Shown here: positions 3,386 through 63,965 of the stretch, piece by piece
How the letters are laid out: the number at the start of each line of letters is the position of its first letter
Numbering within the stretch: the first letter of the stretch is position 1
Source: Hyperoplus lanceolatus
Taxonomy: Eukaryota; Chordata; Actinopteri; Uranoscopiformes; Ammodytidae
Direction: 5' to 3'
Length of the DNA: 64,000 nucleotides
Assembly (NCBI GenBank): GCA_026929865.2
Contig: CM049418.1
Coordinates: forward strand, 6,719,501 to 6,783,500
Translations under genes and position numbers: made by a program
Notes under the pieces: model-generated
Database searches by the model: none
What the model was told of the DNA's origin: nothing
The model's input: only the letters and a program-made list of their open reading frames with translations

Positions 3386-4776
3386 AAGATTGAGGATAGA
3401 AAAAAGACATGGTGGTGGGAGTTAAACATGCTGCTGCTTCTGCGTTGTGGAGAACCACAAGCACGGTGTTGTAACATCAGTTTGAGATGACAGTAATTTA
3501 TGTTTTGGGGGGAAATGCAAAAAAATAAAAAAGCCACACACACACACACAGATCCTCAGGCACGGACACACTAACAACCGCATACATTCTTGGCATTTTC
3601 GCAAGAGCCAATTACGGCTGCCCGAACTGGCAGCTCTGGATGTTTTACAAGCCAGCTGAGACAGTGACTCGCTGGAATCTTTCTTAATTATCATCACAAA
3701 AACTCCCCAAATCCTAAGCCGATAATACAGAGGAGGCCATGCATGCAAGCAGAGGCTCTGTGAGCTTGTGGGCGGACATTAATTGAGAAATTCCAGACTC
3801 CTCCCACTCAGAGATGACATACCAAAGCGCCACAGCGGCGATGTCATTAAAGCTGCTTTCTGTGCAGCCACTCAGAGGACCCCTTTCTCTAAACAGCAAT
3901 AGGAAGCCAGACTCGCTTACATGCAAGCGCACGCTCCACACTGTGGCTCACACACAAAATCACAATGATTCAAAACACATGCAAATACTTTAGATGCCTG
4001 ACCAGGGAGAATACTGGCTACAACGTTCAAACAACATACAGTTAGGAAGGTTTGTGAGTAAATGAGCAAACGGGAGCAGCAACATAATGATGGGAGGACA
4101 GATTGAGACTAGAAATGGAAATAAAGTAAGAAGAGTGACAGGGAAAGGACGAGCTATTATAAGCGTACAATTTTAGCACCAGCTGCCTTGGTGGGAGATC
4201 TGTCAGCGGTAAATCAGCGCCCAGAAAAAGCAGAGACTGGGATACAGCGAGAGAATAACTAACAGTGAGCAATTGAAAAGCTGCTGTGTGTGTGTGTGTC
4301 CACGAGGCAGGATCATTCAGAGGTATGTAGGTGTGGTGTGCTCAGACAGGAAACTGTCGCCTATCCCACTTCCTGTGTATCAGCGGGAAAAGCGGAGACA
4401 CGAGATAAGCCTCAAGGTAAATGGAATATATTGAGCCCTCCTCTTCCTCACAGCAAGTGGACGGAATGCATTAACATAACAGAGGGGGAAAAATCCATGA
4501 ATGTCCCCAATGATAAGACACATTTGCTGAGTTTGAATGCACCTATTTTGCCATATGACGGATAGGGACAGGTTTAAGCAGAACATATAGTATGTGTTCA
4601 CCATGCAAATCTCTCAAAGAGAACTTGAGGGGAAAAACACAAGGGGTTAAGACCAAGTGTGATAACTTATCTGGCTCGTAAGGACTTCAGAAATGCCACC
4701 TCTAGGCTAGTTGATGTCTGCAATCGCTGGACAACACATGAGCAGAATCCGACACACACACACACACGTTTCTCAC

Positions 4777-4950
4777 CGATATCTGGAAGACTTCCTGCGT
4801 GTCATCGAGCATTTGGACCCTGATGGAGACTAGGCGTCCCGGGGGCTGGACAGGAGGACGCAGGCCGGGCTCCAGGGTGGACACTCCAAAACTCTCCGGA
4901 GCGCCAAGCCTCTGTCCGGCTGTAGACGGCCTGTCTGCTGGCTCCACCAT
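4777..4950 (-). CDS. farp1: First coding exon of a FARP1-like FERM/RhoGEF gene
   Basis: On the minus strand ATG at 4950 opens 58 codons, ending at a consensus donor (TCG then gtgaga) in phase 0. The peptide contains RLGAPESFGVSTLEPG and LVSIRVQMLDDTQEVFQ. From memory this matches the N-terminus of FARP1 (RLGAPE..GISTLE, LVSIKIQMLDDTQEAFE), where the FERM domain begins; FARP2 is less similar. FARP1 is a membrane-linked FERM, DH and PH protein that regulates Rho-family GTPases in neuronal dendrites and synapses. An acceptor (ctcctccag) puts the exon start at 5019, so 4951-5019 is 5' UTR. The start sits in a good context (GCCATGG on the minus strand). Only this coding exon is in the window; the rest lies left of position 1. 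Confidence 0.85.
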
Positions 4951-5019
4951 GGCGACAGACGCTACGGTTACGGTTGGGGCTCACACCGAGCTGCTCACAA
5001 CAGGCACCTCTGTTAACGT
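4951..5019 (-). other. farp1: farp1-like 5' UTR part of exon 2
   Basis: The acceptor ttctcctccag lies just right of 5019 on the + coordinate. The 69 bases between it and the ATG are noncoding, so an upstream noncoding exon must exist. Confidence 0.65.
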
Positions 5020-8000
5020 CTGGAGGAGAAAAAGGAAAGTATAGCTTTAGGGAGTTTTTTTTCACTCTCAAAGTGTAGGGTTGAAGTTTGTGTCTTTTTT
5101 AGTGGGATTTTCTGGGGTATTTTTGGCTACTTTAAACACACAGTACTTGTCATATGTTACACCAGAAGGATCAGGCATTTCCGCCCAACAACTAAGCTTC
5201 TCCATATTTTGAATCGTAATAGTACACTTAATATAGTAGTAGTAGACACAATTCTGTGTGTTGGTGAATTCATAAGCACATTCTTTTTCTATTTTTCTTC
5301 CATAGGATAAGTCGCATTCTGAGGGAGAACAGGTCAAATGAGATGCACCATTAACCCTCGCTCAGAACATGAAGGTCTTAAATGTGGAGAAAAACAAGTT
5401 GTTTGTCTGCCTCAGAGGGAAACTTTGTGCTTAATTAGTTCAAGAAATGTCTGAAGACTCTCTCTCGGGGTCTAGGTTAAATTGGCCCTTGCACAATTAA
5501 AAAAAAAAACAGACATTTAGTCAGTGAGTTTTTCAGCGTTTGTTTTATTTACACTCGTTAGGACGATGAAAGGAGCATTTCTAACCACAGACACTAGAAC
5601 AAGCCCGACCCCGTACAGCATGACAGCTGAACGTAAAAGACAGACATGTCTCACACTTTTGCCAGACGTGCACTTAATCCAGCTGCAGCACATGTATGTA
5701 TGCAGGTGGGATTTACTCGATAGTTTCCTACCGAGCAAACACTGAGCTCTGTCTAAGACCAGTTCAGACTTGAATCAAAAGCCTCACAAGTTGGGCAGAT
5801 GAGATACGGTCTGAGAATACACAAAGAGACACTCACTGGACCCCCCTCCTCCTTTCCCCTTCTTTCAAACACACACAAACTTTTCGGCGCCCCCCTCCAC
5901 CTCCATCCCCAATCCCAGCCCTTGATAAACCTCAACCTCAGACAATAAATATGCTCTCAGACGGTTGATGACATCACAGGTGAGGAATGTTTTGGAAGAC
6001 AGTCACACACAAACACAGTGGATTTTTATGTGCCTCTGAGTGCACGGGGTCGAGTATGGTACAATGAAAATCAAACATCCCTTTTTTTCCTGTGCTTTCT
6101 CCGAGGTGCTGTAAAACGCATTTCGTCTCGCCAAGAGCCATTACATCACTATTACATGTCGTCGATAAATCAATAAACCATTACGGGACCTATAGAGCTA
6201 TGTATTGATTAGCAGGTCGTTACATCTTTCTTTGTAGTCACTGGTTCAAAACCCCCCTCCTGTCCTGTCTTCTCCTCAGCAGCCAACACTTTTTGTTTAG
6301 GAAAAAACACACTGCAAAGTTAGAGCAAGGCCTCAATCCGCATTGATCAACTTTTTTCTCCTAGGCAGCAACACCGTGCCTCTGCATAAACAGACAGGTC
6401 TAAATATTTAGGGACAAAGGGTTGTGTGGTGCTGCAGACATTGAACAGGGATGACCCTCAATCAAACCCTGCGTGATAGCTGTATAAGCATCCTTCAACA
6501 AACCTTTCCACCCCATCAAAAATACACAGTATGTCATCGGGTTGATTGGGCTGTCCGATTCCAACGCCTCCCTGCCAAATCTGGAGAATAAAACTGCTGT
6601 ATAATTTGCGGTCTTTTTTTTTTTGGTCAACTGTCCTATAGTCCAGTGAGTGCTGGTCACTGTTCTCTGCTAAAGCTTAGATACGAGGTGCAGTGTTACT
6701 ATGGTGAAGCATCTGTGCACCTTCAGAGCAGAAAGAAGAAATAATCGAATCAAGAAATCAATCTGCAACGACTAAGATAACTAATTTGATTATCCAATGC
6801 AAGCGGTTTGCTGCTTTGTGCTGTATTATATCATTAAGTGAACCAATTTTTTGATTTTGGACTGTGGCTCAGACAAAAAAAAAAGCTACTTAAAAAAGTA
6901 GTATGGGTGGATTTGATTATTTTCCAGCTATTTTAATCAGCGAATCAAAAAATAACCATAATAATTATTAGTTTCAGCCCTACTGCAGAGCCTTAAGTCT
7001 TCCAAAGGCCAAAGAAAAGGCCAACGCAGAGGCCCCGGACATGGCACACAGCCAGTGAATGCCTAAGAGCTCCAAGGAAGCTGCTCTTTAGCTGACCTCT
7101 GACCTCAGTGTGAAAGTTGCCTTCTTCCTGCACCAATTACAGAATACATATACAGTACATACAGAAACACATTAGCAATAATGTGTAGCCTGTTTGTAAT
7201 TCAACTCGAAAGACAACTTTTTATTTTGTTCTTCTTTCACCTAATCGAGCATTTTCTTTCAAAAATGTGAGCACAATTGTTGTACTAATCCCTCCACCTG
7301 CACACACACAAACTCTCTGACAAAAGATGACACTTGAAACTGGAGACGAGCCAAAGAAGTGACCAGACAATAAAAAGAGACCTGACATTCAGGTTACTCA
7401 TTACACCTGTGGGAACGCTTGGTTGTTCTTGTGTGCTACCCCCCCCCCCCTCAAATGCACTGAAATGAACGCATAGCTCAGTTGCTAATTAGCATTCCGG
7501 TATTGGCCTGTTTCAGAGAGGGCCGAGACTGAAATACAAAATATTTACACAACTTTATTCCTTAACACTCACTCAATAAGAATCACCTCTTTGTCTCTCC
7601 TTGTGTAACTCGTAAAGACAAAAAAAAACAACAGTCAACTTCGGGGGCCAGTTTAAAACTCTACCTAATCGTTCGCTAACAAGCAGGTGTCAATTACCCC
7701 GATAAACATCAGGGGGTCACATTCTGCAGAGACGGCGGGCCAGGTTTGTTGCACAAACTCATCAACAGGTTACATTTATGGGCAGTTTTTTAAGCTCCAA
7801 ACACACAAGAGCAGCTGTACTCAGGGAGTACTTTTCCACAGGTAAACATGAAAAGGAAACCAAAAAGGCCCTTCCCTAGAGCTGCAATGGCATCAAAACA
7901 CCACACAGCAACTTCCACAACGCTTTTAATGAGGTTGCCCTCATTTATAAAATCAGAAATGTGCACTGGATTGATTGAAGAACTTTGAGTATAACACTTT

Positions 8001-54100: not shown

Positions 54101-54149
54101 TGTCAGAAGTGGGATTCGAACCCACGCCTCCAGAGGAGACTGCGACCTG
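54101..54149 (-). tRNA. tRNA-Leu(CAG), 3' half of a split gene
   Basis: The minus strand reads CAGGTCGCAGTCTCC then GGTTCGAATCC (B box) and ends TTCTGACA. This is the 3' 49 nt of tRNA-Leu(CAG) as I recall it, starting at the anticodon. TTTT lies about 5 nt downstream. The matching 5' half is at 57124-57152. Confidence 0.8.
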
Positions 54150-54199
54150 GTAGCTGGCGAAAGATAGTCTGTCTAAGCTATTGGACTCGGCCTGGAATT

Positions 54200-54442
54200 A
54201 AACCAATCAGTGCCCAAGCTCTCCAATAGCTAATGGACCTCAGCTGTATTTCGGCAAATCAGAGAAGGCCTGTCCAATAGCTATAGGAGATTTCGGCCAA
54301 TCAGTCAACGCCTGTACGGCGCATGCGCAATGCGTCATGACGCTCAGCAGCACCAGCACTAGACGTCCATTGTTGTTTACGTTTAGAGCTACGCTGTTTG
54401 TTGGATAATGACCTACAGATATTCCTTCATTCGTTATCAAAG
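54200..54442 (+). promoter_or_regulatory. Promoter-like region inside the tRNA-Leu insertion
   Basis: Contains CCAAT boxes (aaccaatcag near 54201, ggccaatcag near 54294), an NRF1-type palindrome GCGCATGCGC (54319-54328), a CRE-like GCGTCATGACGC next to it, and about 100 bp later a perfect donor GTAAGT at 54442. It resembles a CpG, TATA-less promoter with first exon on the plus strand. Confidence 0.5.
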
Positions 54443-55269
54443 TAAGTAACCACTTAATGTTTTTACATCCATATTAGCTATGCTTCACATTTTCATTCAT
54501 CCCAAACGTAGCACAGGCATTTTATCTCTGTATTGAAGCAACAGTCAGTAGCCTAGTTAGCTTTCGCCATTGCTGACTACATTAACGTCGGTCAGCATGG
54601 AAATTTACGATGTTATCTAATGTAATTCACAAGGCTTTAGTTCTCGTTTGTTTATGTGCTAAAGCTGTAAGGCTGTAGAGGTATCTAGGAGCTCTATTTA
54701 TTCATCCAGCACCCGCTCTCTCAGTCACTACACGTCCGCTCTCCCCGGGCTTCTTGCCACACTCGCCCGCTGAATTCTGTCCCAAACCGGCCCGCTTTAA
54801 ACTCTAAAATGGACCCACTGGTACCGGGGCATTCCCATAACCTTAGCCGATCCCTCCCCAGCAAAGTCCCGTCCCAAACCAACATGCAGTCCTGTGCGGA
54901 TTCAATGTATCGAAGCAGCCAGCCACTGTTATCTACTTCAGTTTACATAAACTATTGTGGTCGTTATTGCTGTATGTTAGTGTGATACTATCTCAGTGTA
55001 TAGTAGTTAGTTAGCATGTTTACATCCAGTGTTTACTTGTTCACAAGAGCTACTGTAGGTTCCCTTAAAGATAATGATGTAAACATTAGCTCATTATGTG
55101 TGTCTGACTTAGTAATCAAATGACATGCATTGTAGTTGCTACAAAGGAATAATTAAATGTATTAGCCCACCTGAAGCCTAGGTATGATGACAGCTGTTAA
55201 TGGTTGTAATAACAATGCATTTGCTGCTTGCATCACTGATAGTGTATCTGTTTTCTCTTTTTTTAAGAC

Positions 55270-55615
55270 TGTGGATGATTGTACAGTCCAAAGTATGGAC
55301 AGCGTGCCAGGCTGCTGTGCCACGCATAGACAGAGTTGAAAGAATGGCAAGAAAAGGCGTGTCTGCAGTCTAACCACCGCTGGCTGTGAAGCTGAAGCTG
55401 TTACCTGATCCACCCTCCAGCCCTCAGCTTGTGCTGTTGGATCCAGCTGACTCTCAGGTGCCTGTGCTGGTTGCTGCCCAGCAGGTCCCTGGGTGCCACC
55501 CTCTTCTCTGCCCCTTTTGCCCCTGCTGCTTCCGCTACTGTCCCAAAATAATGTTCACAATAGAGAGCATCCTCTGTCTCAGCGTGACAAAGACTTTAAT
55601 ATGTATTGAACTGTA

Positions 55616-55620
<5 letters not shown>
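55270..55620 (+). other. Possible transcript body, product unknown
   Basis: A candidate acceptor (tttttttaag) at 55269 starts a GC-richer segment. The longest frame (from 55386, Pro/Leu/Cys-rich) runs into the TG repeat and has no known motif. It may be part of a noncoding transcript driven by the 54.2-54.4 kb promoter-like region. Confidence 0.3.
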
Positions 55621-55649
<29 letters not shown>

Positions 55650-55680
55650 TGTGAGTGAGTGTGTGTGTGTGAGAGCGAGT
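55613..55680. repeat. (TG)/(GA) microsatellite
   Basis: Mixed TG and GA dinucleotide repeats. Confidence 0.85.
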
Positions 55681-56117
55681 GAGCGGACGTGGACAGATGG
55701 TGTGCGTGTGTGAATGAGTGAAAGTCAGTACATGCATGTGCATATTATTTGCACACAGTATTTTCTTATGTATATTTTTTACTGACATGTGCGACAGATA
55801 GAAGTTATTTTTGAAAGTTAAAGACGGTTGCTTTTATCTCCCTTTGTGGTTAAGGTGTGATCAATCATTGAAATATGAAGAGGCATCCTTTTCATTGTTT
55901 TTTTTTATTAATTTATTTTATAATAATTTATTTTACTTATTTGTTTATATACCTGAGTCTCCCTTCCTCATTGTATTAATTGTGTATCCTGTTGCTTGTA
56001 TTTTGATTGTAAATATGACTTCCTTTTGTGACGGACGCTAAATGGGCATAATTCACTGAAATGTATTTATATAGATTCATGAATGAAATGTTTTGCTCCC
56101 TTTAAGAGGGCGTATGG

Positions 56118-56728
56118 CAGGCCTATTCAACTAGCGGCCCGTGGACCGAATATGGCCCTTCTTGTTTTTTTTCTGGCCCGCAAGAGGTTGCCTGCAGACC
56201 AAATAAAATTGTTGTCTGCCAATCTGGTTCGCATGTGTAATACACGGCGTAATATGTTAAATAAAACGAATGCAGTAAATCAGTTTTACACATGCCTATG
56301 AGGCTGGTTTATGAAGCTGCATGAGTGTCTCAGGATTGGCCTTACAATTTATAAGCCTAACTATGCTGAAATAGCAAAATCAAGGCAGTGCAATTTCTCT
56401 CACTGACTGAAACAGGCTCAAACTGTCTCAAATGTGCAGTAGTTCTGTTTTGTGATGATTCCAACAACATTGTTGAATTATAAGAATGTGTCCAAAATAT
56501 TTTAGAACAACAATTGTTATAATGATTCGATTAAAAGTGAAGAAGAAAGGAATGCGTCTGACCAGTTTATTCCATTTAGCAGTACTATATCAATTGAGTT
56601 AACACTACCTTAAATACGATTTATTTGTAGTGATTAATTGACATTATATGTTTTACTGTATGTGTGGCCCATGAACCCCCAGCGGTTTTCCTTTTCGGCC
56701 CACTTATTAAGGAGGTTGAATAGCCCTG
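56118..56728. mobile_element. hAT element with exact 8-bp duplication GCGTATGG
   Basis: CAGGCCTATTCAAC and the complement CAGGGCTATTCAAC form the ends. GCGTATGG flanks both sides (56110-56117 and 56729-56736). Contains GGCCCG/CGGCCC subterminal motifs. 611 bp, non-autonomous. Confidence 0.88.
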
Positions 56729-57123
56729 GCGTATGGTAACAGGGGAGACGGGCACCATGTGTAGTTAAAAGGTGGCTGTATGACGTGTGCTGGAAAATGT
56801 TTGTGAGGTGTGAATAAACGGCCACAGAGGTGTGCAGCCAAATGAAGTGATCGGCTTGACTCCTTCCTTCAACTCCTGCAATTTTTTCTTATTTCTTGTT
56901 CATAAGAAATAGGCCTACAATTCTAATTCCACTCACAATGAGTGTCTTATTTGTATGAATTATTAGGTGATATGACAACTGTTTTGTACGTTCTGAGGTA
57001 TATAATTAACACTAACTCAATTCATTTTCCCTCAATTTTTCATTTGTTTCTCTCTTTTTCTTCTTCCCCCTCTTTCTCCTTTCCCCCCCCCCTTGACAGA
57101 CTATTGTTCCCCAGCTTTAGAGG

Positions 57124-57152
57124 AGCGCCTTAGACCGCTCGGCCATCCTGAC
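57124..57152 (-). tRNA. tRNA-Leu(CAG), 5' half of a split gene
   Basis: The minus strand reads GTCAGGATGGCCGAGCGGTC then TAAGGCGCT, the 5' 29 nt of tRNA-Leu with its A box. Its first seven bases pair with the 3' half's acceptor strand (one G-U). 29 plus 49 is 78, five short of the normal 83; the missing bases are in the 5' side of the anticodon arm. Confidence 0.8.
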
Positions 57153-57508: not shown

Positions 57509-57599
57509 ATAACTAAGCTGGGGAACAATAGACTGGATAAGGGGGAAAAGACGGAAGGAGGAAAAAAAGGAAAAAGGAGAGAAAAAAAGGAAAAAGAAA

Positions 57600-57840
57600 G
57601 AGGGCGTCCACCCTCAACTACAGGGTCGGTGGTTCGATCCCCCGTCCCCCCGACACATGTCTAAATGTTCCAAGACACTGAAGCCTAAACTGCTCCCGAT
57701 AGTTGGTTTGCACCATGGATTGTATACAAAAGGTTTGCACCCTGCATGGTAGCTGCTGCTATCGGTGTATGAATGTGTGGTCCAGTTGTGAGTCACTCTG
57801 GATAAAAGCGTCTGCTGAATGACATGTAATAATAATAAAC
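57600..57840 (+). mobile_element. tRNA-derived SINE fragment
   Basis: Contains a B-box-like ggtggttcgatcccccg, then caagacactgaa, ctcccgatagttg, tatcggtgtatgaatgtgtg and ataaaagcgtctgctgaatg, typical of a teleost tRNA-derived SINE. The A-box end is degraded. Confidence 0.65.
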
Positions 57841-63892: not shown

Positions 63893-63965
63893 TGCCCCAT
63901 GTGAGGCTCAAACTCACGACCTTCAGATTATGAGACTGACGCTCTGCCTACTGCGCCAACGAGGC
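63893..63965 (-). tRNA. Elongator tRNA-Met(CAU), full length
   Basis: 73 nt on the minus strand from GCCTCGTTGGCGCAGTAGGC to CACATGGGGCA, with CTCATAATC around the anticodon. Length and most positions match vertebrate elongator tRNA-Met (recalled). The T loop reads TTTGAGCC where TTCGATCC is usual, weakening the B box, so it may be a recent pseudogene. No CCA is encoded, as normal in eukaryotes. Confidence 0.8.

Follow-up and report, generated by a model that had tools for sequence, protein, structure and literature searches.

In a window of 64,000 nucleotides from Hyperoplus lanceolatus (contig CM049418.1; C24:6719501-6783500 in our numbering of contigs), a transfer RNA (tRNA) gene, tRNA-Leu(CAG), is split into two parts by an insert. 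We put the probability at about 0.92 that this insert is a DNA transposon of the Dada superfamily, internally deleted, which entered the anticodon arm of the gene in the opposite orientation. Few DNA transposons target tRNA and small nuclear RNA (snRNA) genes, and Dada elements belong to these few. The genome searched comprises 807 Mb in 527 contigs. Among the papers found, two are devoted to Dada by title and abstract, Kojima and Jurka 2013 (PMC3706591) and Kojima 2022 (PMC8869645).

The split tRNA-Leu(CAG) gene and its insert

Read on the minus strand, the 5′ part of the gene, which holds the 5′ acceptor strand and the D arm and runs to the start of the anticodon stem, is GTCAGGATGGCCGAGCGGTCTAAGGCGCT (57152-57124), and the 3′ part, comprising the end of the anticodon arm, the variable arm, the T arm and the 3′ acceptor strand, is CAGGTCGCAGTCTCCTCTGGAGGCGTGGGTTCGAATCCCACTTCTGACA (54149-54101). 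The acceptor stem is complete, with seven pairs, one of which is G-T. This agrees with a first-pass annotation made by a model from the letters alone, which had placed the two halves at 54101-54149 and 57124-57152 with pairing acceptor strands. ARAGORN, run on the window with the bacterial code, reported a single tRNA, a tRNA-Met at 63893-63965, and did not score the split tRNA-Leu as a tRNA. Intact tRNA-Leu(CAG) is present in the same genome, where the exact 30-mer GACTGCGACCTGAACGCAGCGCCTTAGACC occurs six times. Since this 30-mer shows the native reading, the five anticodon-arm bases that the annotation had counted as missing can be identified as AACGC. Compared with the intact gene, AACGC is gone, one extra G stands at the left break (54150, plus strand), where the native slot is lost, and the hexamer TAGAGG (57118..57123, plus strand) stands at the right break in place of the native GAACGC; we refer to such a replaced stretch beside the element as the slot.

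The element itself (TAGCTGG...CCAGCTT; 54151..57117, plus strand) is non-autonomous and, together with a nested hAT-like transposon, measures 2967 bp; it was delimited by its dispersed copies, its ends and its Dada coding homology. An inverted-repeat scan gave the left arm AGCTGGCGAAAGATAGTCTGTC (54152..54173, plus strand) and a right arm (57095..57116, minus strand) identical to it at 19 of 22 positions, the chance of which is about 2.5e-9 for arms fixed beforehand at these places and equal base frequencies. The same 19 of 22 matches had been seen at first pass, with the inverted ends set exactly at the breaks; the match holds, but the flush position does not, because the G on the left and TAGAGG on the right intervene. 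No target duplication is visible at the window junctions, as had likewise been said.

The insert belongs to a mobile element dispersed in the genome. Searching with the whole insert, with 40 of 258 candidates scored, yielded at least 73 matches; many correspond to the nested hAT-like element, others to host-element copies. The first 251 bases yielded 12 matches, window included. At the loci L009-L014, the longest match per locus is 90.6-95.4% identical to the window element. The left end TAGCTGGCGAAAG is found on C3 (L012) and C20 (L013, L014) and, with one change, on C11 (L010), and the flanking DNA differs each time. That the tRNA halves might themselves be part of the repeat, a possibility raised in the annotation, was rejected: among ten loci compared, the window alone has tRNA-Leu on both sides, and the others lack a tRNA-Leu pair.

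The element is placed in the Dada superfamily on account of the coding sequence of its family. Positions 1057-2175 of locus L052 form an open frame of 373 residues whose end holds CRQCHQPCLKETGHGQYYGQNYC, with the spacing C-x2-C-x9-H-x8-C. This equals the spacing of the C-terminal zinc finger of Dada-U6_DR as derived from published residue numbers (PMC3706591). In the window and 16 loci (404,164 codons), the finger motif occurs four times, in L012, L014, L052 and L054, all four in frames matched by the Dada transposase, and not in the window copy. The L052 protein has 34 matching stretches across the genome, L014 and L012 among them. Both of these loci belong to the window's own family, and both encode the C-terminus of a Dada transposase with the zinc finger. 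In the window copy, tblastn against the open frame of L014 revealed a C-terminal coding remnant of 52 codons (55374..55529, plus strand), in which 28 of 54 alignment columns are identical (E value 1.6e-8, or 3e-10 with a smaller search space). Because this remnant of the C-terminal coding region is kept, we regard the window copy as an internally deleted Dada element.

A related element, L054 (C4:8122500-8132400), contains a Dada transposase gene at 3770-7953, composed of several open stretches, with a last frame of 543 residues and a right end that runs into a stretch of N. At 4019 it encodes an N-terminal CCCC finger, C-x4-C-x32-C-x2-C, with x32 as compared to x34 in Dada-U6_DR, and by eye we identified a candidate for the first D (LKLDSTKK), the second D (YVDCGCC) and DxxH (DIWH). 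Upstream of the L052 frame, L055 holds a homologue of the L054 exon with the second D and DxxH; here, the right end in L044 and the exons in L052 and L055 are taken as one element. The scan for the CCCC finger covered the plus strand of L054 and L055 and found none in L055. Six frames were searched against Pfam. Five of them, including the Dada frames of L052 and L014, gave no match, and the sixth, a long interspersed element (LINE) frame beside L012, gave reverse transcriptase and two further matches.

The break in tRNA-Leu(CAG) lies between TGAACGC and AGCGCCTTAG, the gene resuming with AGCGCCTTAG directly beyond the slot; gene and transposase remnant lie on opposite strands. The published target of Dada-tL is TGAACGCAGCGCCTTAG, and Dada elements of the anticodon loop insert opposite to the tRNA (Kojima 2022, PMC8869645). 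Judged by sequence, the window break is the published Dada-tL site, with the same opposite orientation. The guess 'Dada-like' made at first pass is thus upheld by the transposase homology, by the C-terminal zinc finger in two family copies and by the position of the break; its alternative, a new tRNA-targeting element, is not needed. Judged by the text descriptions of published families, the element appears to be a new example of a described kind of Dada.

Dada-tL is reported to generate a 7-bp duplication, GCGTTCA (PMC3706591), which is absent on both sides of the window insert. Moreover, GACTGCGACCTGAACGCB, which represents the left flank plus this duplication, had no exact match in the genome. 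Dada may not always generate duplications (PMC8869645). The element ends were also compared with the tRNA downstream of the slot, of which they would be copies in the manner of Dada-U6 and Dada-U1. With both ends tested against eight tRNA sequences on both strands, with 500 shuffles each, the lowest fraction among the 32 tests was 0.074, which lends no support to such copying.

Sites of related ends and the right-end hexamer

With one mismatch allowed, the 19-base right end occurs at 17 places in the genome, three of which lie inside tRNA genes (Leu, Arg and Phe-type) and one in a tRNA-like repeat. In L044 (C10:19528123), the right end is followed by the tRNA-Phe-type gene from nucleotide 8 onwards, and beyond the hexamer 20 bases agree with intact genes in the genome. 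The anticodon place of this cut gene (L044 1520-1590, C10) reads CAC, where tRNA-Phe has GAA, and the rest of its visible body is tRNA-Phe-like. In L053 and L042 (C5:16276963, minus strand), a tRNA-Arg is cut in the anticodon arm with a geometry like that of the window; the right end is the same and AGTGCCTTAT follows the slot. The Arg and Phe-type sites were seen on the right side only, and their left ends were not found. A search for the right end in tRNA-Leu with up to two mismatches produced 32 matches versus 4 for a reversed control pattern; the window alone was exact, C5:16276947 is the tRNA-Arg site, and the others were judged by 24 matched bases alone.

Further copies stand close to tRNA genes or parts of them. 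In L016, a copy of the element truncated on its left is fused to the 3′ part of a tRNA-Leu, and L013 starts three bases beyond a stretch that is 99% identical to the DNA upstream of tRNA-Val, the identity reaching the gene's first base. Within L013 (C20:4568000-4575000) the Dada copy lies in a cluster of genes for tRNA-Val and tRNA-Asp together with a decayed stretch resembling tRNA-Asp, and about 10 kb beyond, at C20:4584995, there is an intact tRNA-Leu(CAG) 30-mer. An intact tRNA-Leu(AAG) has its 5′ end 60 bases from the start of L030 (C17:9088000-9097900). This locus contains tandem copies joined via TAGAGG, and another element, with the ends AGAGCTGTTAA, is apparently nested near its left end. 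Intact tRNAs were found within 5 of 12 loci. The tRNA family search scored 63 of 57,263 first-look candidates, and we make no claim of enrichment around tRNA genes.

The hexamer TAGAGG recurs next to two other right ends, in L010 and in L030, in the latter followed by the second, tandem copy. The host of the L010 copy (C11) is a high-copy repeat with a B-box-like stretch. Aligned by eye, most empty copies of this repeat read CGACCTC-ATGGTTA-CTGGTC-GGCCACC, and the occupied one reads CGACCTC-CCAAGG, element, TAGAGG-GGCCACC; among seven empty copies fetched, the hexamer at this place is CTGGTC in five and CTGCTC or CTGGAC in the other two. In L010, TAGAGG thus occupies the place of a different native hexamer, so it may move with the element from one site to the next. 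At other right ends the slot holds TAGCGG for TAGCTC (L044), TGGCGG (L043), TTGGCC (L012) or CCGTCA (L009), and at the tRNA-Arg site (C5:16276963) it holds GAGGTC, one base off the native GAGGCC. The left slot is shortened or changed at the junctions. We count the slot as 6 bp because the replaced stretch after CCAGCTT amounts to six bases in L010, L044 and the window; in the window, the letters are also compatible with a 7-base slot (TTAGAGG).

Replacement of target bases has been described for other Dada elements: Dada-tA replaces TAGCAT by GCGCAA, by a mechanism left unexplained (Kojima and Jurka, PMC3706591), and Dada-tY replaces TAGCTC by TGGCGG (PMC8869645). The missing anticodon-arm bases in the window fit this published behaviour. 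On the simplest reading, the shared TAGAGG may travel along with the element. We tentatively extend this to a Dada family that uses several tRNAs, a proposal that we consider quite conceivable though short of probable: the moving unit would carry its old hexamer, TAGAGG, and put it in place of the hexamer of the new site, beside downstream DNA like that of the anticodon arm in more than one tRNA species and in tRNA-derived repeats, and imprecise excision would explain the published 'replacement'. In both the 2013 and the 2022 paper, the replacement of target bases by some Dada elements is left unexplained. In the present genome, one family copy lies in tRNA-Leu and another in a repeat of which many copies are empty, and related right ends lie in genes of tRNA-Arg and of the tRNA-Phe type. 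Since filled and empty sites can be compared within it, the idea of a carried hexamer is directly testable, and this hexamer, if indeed carried, is what makes the finding most useful.

Course of insertion and rival explanations

Because the window copy is without nearly all of the transposase gene, it would have been moved by a transposase from elsewhere. The Dada transposase is thought to recognise DNA mainly downstream of the insertion point (Kojima 2022, PMC8869645). In the present case it would recognise AGCGCCTTAG and cut the adjoining slot of 6-7 bp in an empty tRNA-Leu site, which before insertion would read CTGCGACCTGAACGCAGCGCC. The right slot was replaced by TAGAGG, seemingly brought along from an earlier site, and the left slot was lost except for one G, with the removal of AACGC and the destruction of the tRNA. 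The hAT element inserted into the Dada copy later. A working split or trans-spliced tRNA gene, with which the retention of acceptor strands in both halves would agree, can hardly be entertained. A transposon separates the halves by 2.97 kb, and this reading was rejected on the grounds that the anticodon-stem bases AACGC are missing, so that the joined halves would be without most of one strand of this stem.

Several observations weigh against a Dada element, or at least against one strictly specialised on tRNA-Leu. At 13 of the 17 right-end sites no RNA gene was recognised at the junction, and intact tRNAs are found in none of the 17 right-end neighbourhoods (3 kb) and in none of the four loci L052-L055. 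The window is the only one of the ten compared loci with tRNA-Leu on both sides. L009, L012 and L014 share the left end and show no recognised tRNA gene at the junction, and the flanks of L012 are unrelated to each other, with a LINE on the right and on the left a repeat of which five fetched copies continue past the junction into other DNA. None of the five family copies with both ends (window, L009, L010, L012 and L030, the ends of L030 being assumed to belong to one copy) has a 6-7 bp target duplication, as inspected by eye. In L054 we did not identify the catalytic E, its CCCC and DDE exons found no counterpart by tblastn among the loci of the window's family, and the 22-bp terminal inverted ends (19 of 22) are unlike Dada-U6 and Dada-U1, for which short subterminal inverted repeats only, and no terminal ones, are described (PMC3706591). 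The annotation had named the same ends at non-tRNA sites as a finding that would speak against it, and for the left end this was found in part, in L009, L012 and L014. Such flanks argue against strict tRNA-Leu specificity and not against Dada, since they have been published for zebrafish Dada-tL, where the mixed flanks of Dada-tL_DR were explained as one-ended transposition (PMC3706591). The junctions of these three loci, the complete copies without a Dada-type duplication and the 17 neighbourhoods without an intact tRNA would also suit a transposon of another superfamily that has no target preference and landed in the tRNA gene by chance. We consider this very improbable, given that L012 and L014 show the zinc finger and the coding homology of Dada, that the break is at the published Dada-tL base even though the intact 30-mer occurs only six times in 807 Mb, and that three of the right-end sites lie inside tRNA genes.

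Within the Dada assignment, the main rival to a carried hexamer is that TAGAGG represents the true right terminus of the element, the insertion having deleted 5 bp of target without making a duplication. TAGAGG indeed follows the right end in three of the five family copies that retain it (window, L010, L030), with varying left flanks, but TTGGCC in L012, CCGTCA in L009 and TAGCGG, TGGCGG and GAGGTC in related elements take its place, and in the window, L010 and L044 the hexamer fills a slot of exactly 6 bp; we therefore regard it as unlikely, though worth keeping in view. Somewhat less doubtful, yet still not favoured, is that the element truly belongs to Dada-tL as a published lineage. The target site and the orientation are equal, and for Dada-tL copies internal deletions, mismatched flanks and flanks other than tRNA, including those of Dada-tL_DR, are reported (PMC3706591). 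In contrast to Dada-tL, the window has no GCGTTCA duplication and no genomic match to the left flank plus duplication, carries TAGAGG on the right and shows clear 22-bp inverted ends, and the slots TAGAGG, TAGCGG and TGGCGG recall Dada-tY. The latter (goldfish Dada-tY_CaAu) resembles our element in the replacement of a native hexamer beside it, and tRNA-Phe, one of its targets, is comparable to L044; however, it targets nucleotides 8-13, whereas our element interrupts tRNA-Leu in the anticodon arm and has TAGAGG. Dada-U6N1_DR of zebrafish is likewise non-autonomous and has lost its middle while keeping both ends and the target site, but it differs in its target gene, and Dada-U6 has no reported terminal inverted repeats.

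Nested and neighbouring elements

The element nested in the Dada copy (56118..56728, strand not assigned) was found by the inverted-repeat scan and has the inverted ends CAGGCCTATTCAAC and GTTGAATAGCCCTG. It is flanked by an 8-bp target duplication, GCGTATGG, on the left (56110..56117) and on the right (56729..56736), and is missing at the corresponding place in L009, L010, L013, L015 and L016.

A second Dada fragment, comprising a right end of the type GTCTATTGTTCCCCAGCTT found in L040, L043 and L044, lies at 57515..57545 (minus strand), 362 bp beyond the split tRNA-Leu and in the opposite orientation. At 57776-57828 (plus strand) we observed a 3′ stem-loop of a UnaL2-type LINE, scoring 39.1 bits and thus below the Rfam gathering threshold of 55; the DNA beside it has the B-box-like GGTTCGATCCC and is perhaps a tRNA-derived short interspersed element (SINE). 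The tRNA-Met reported by ARAGORN is intact, lies on the minus strand and is located about 7 kb from the split tRNA-Leu.

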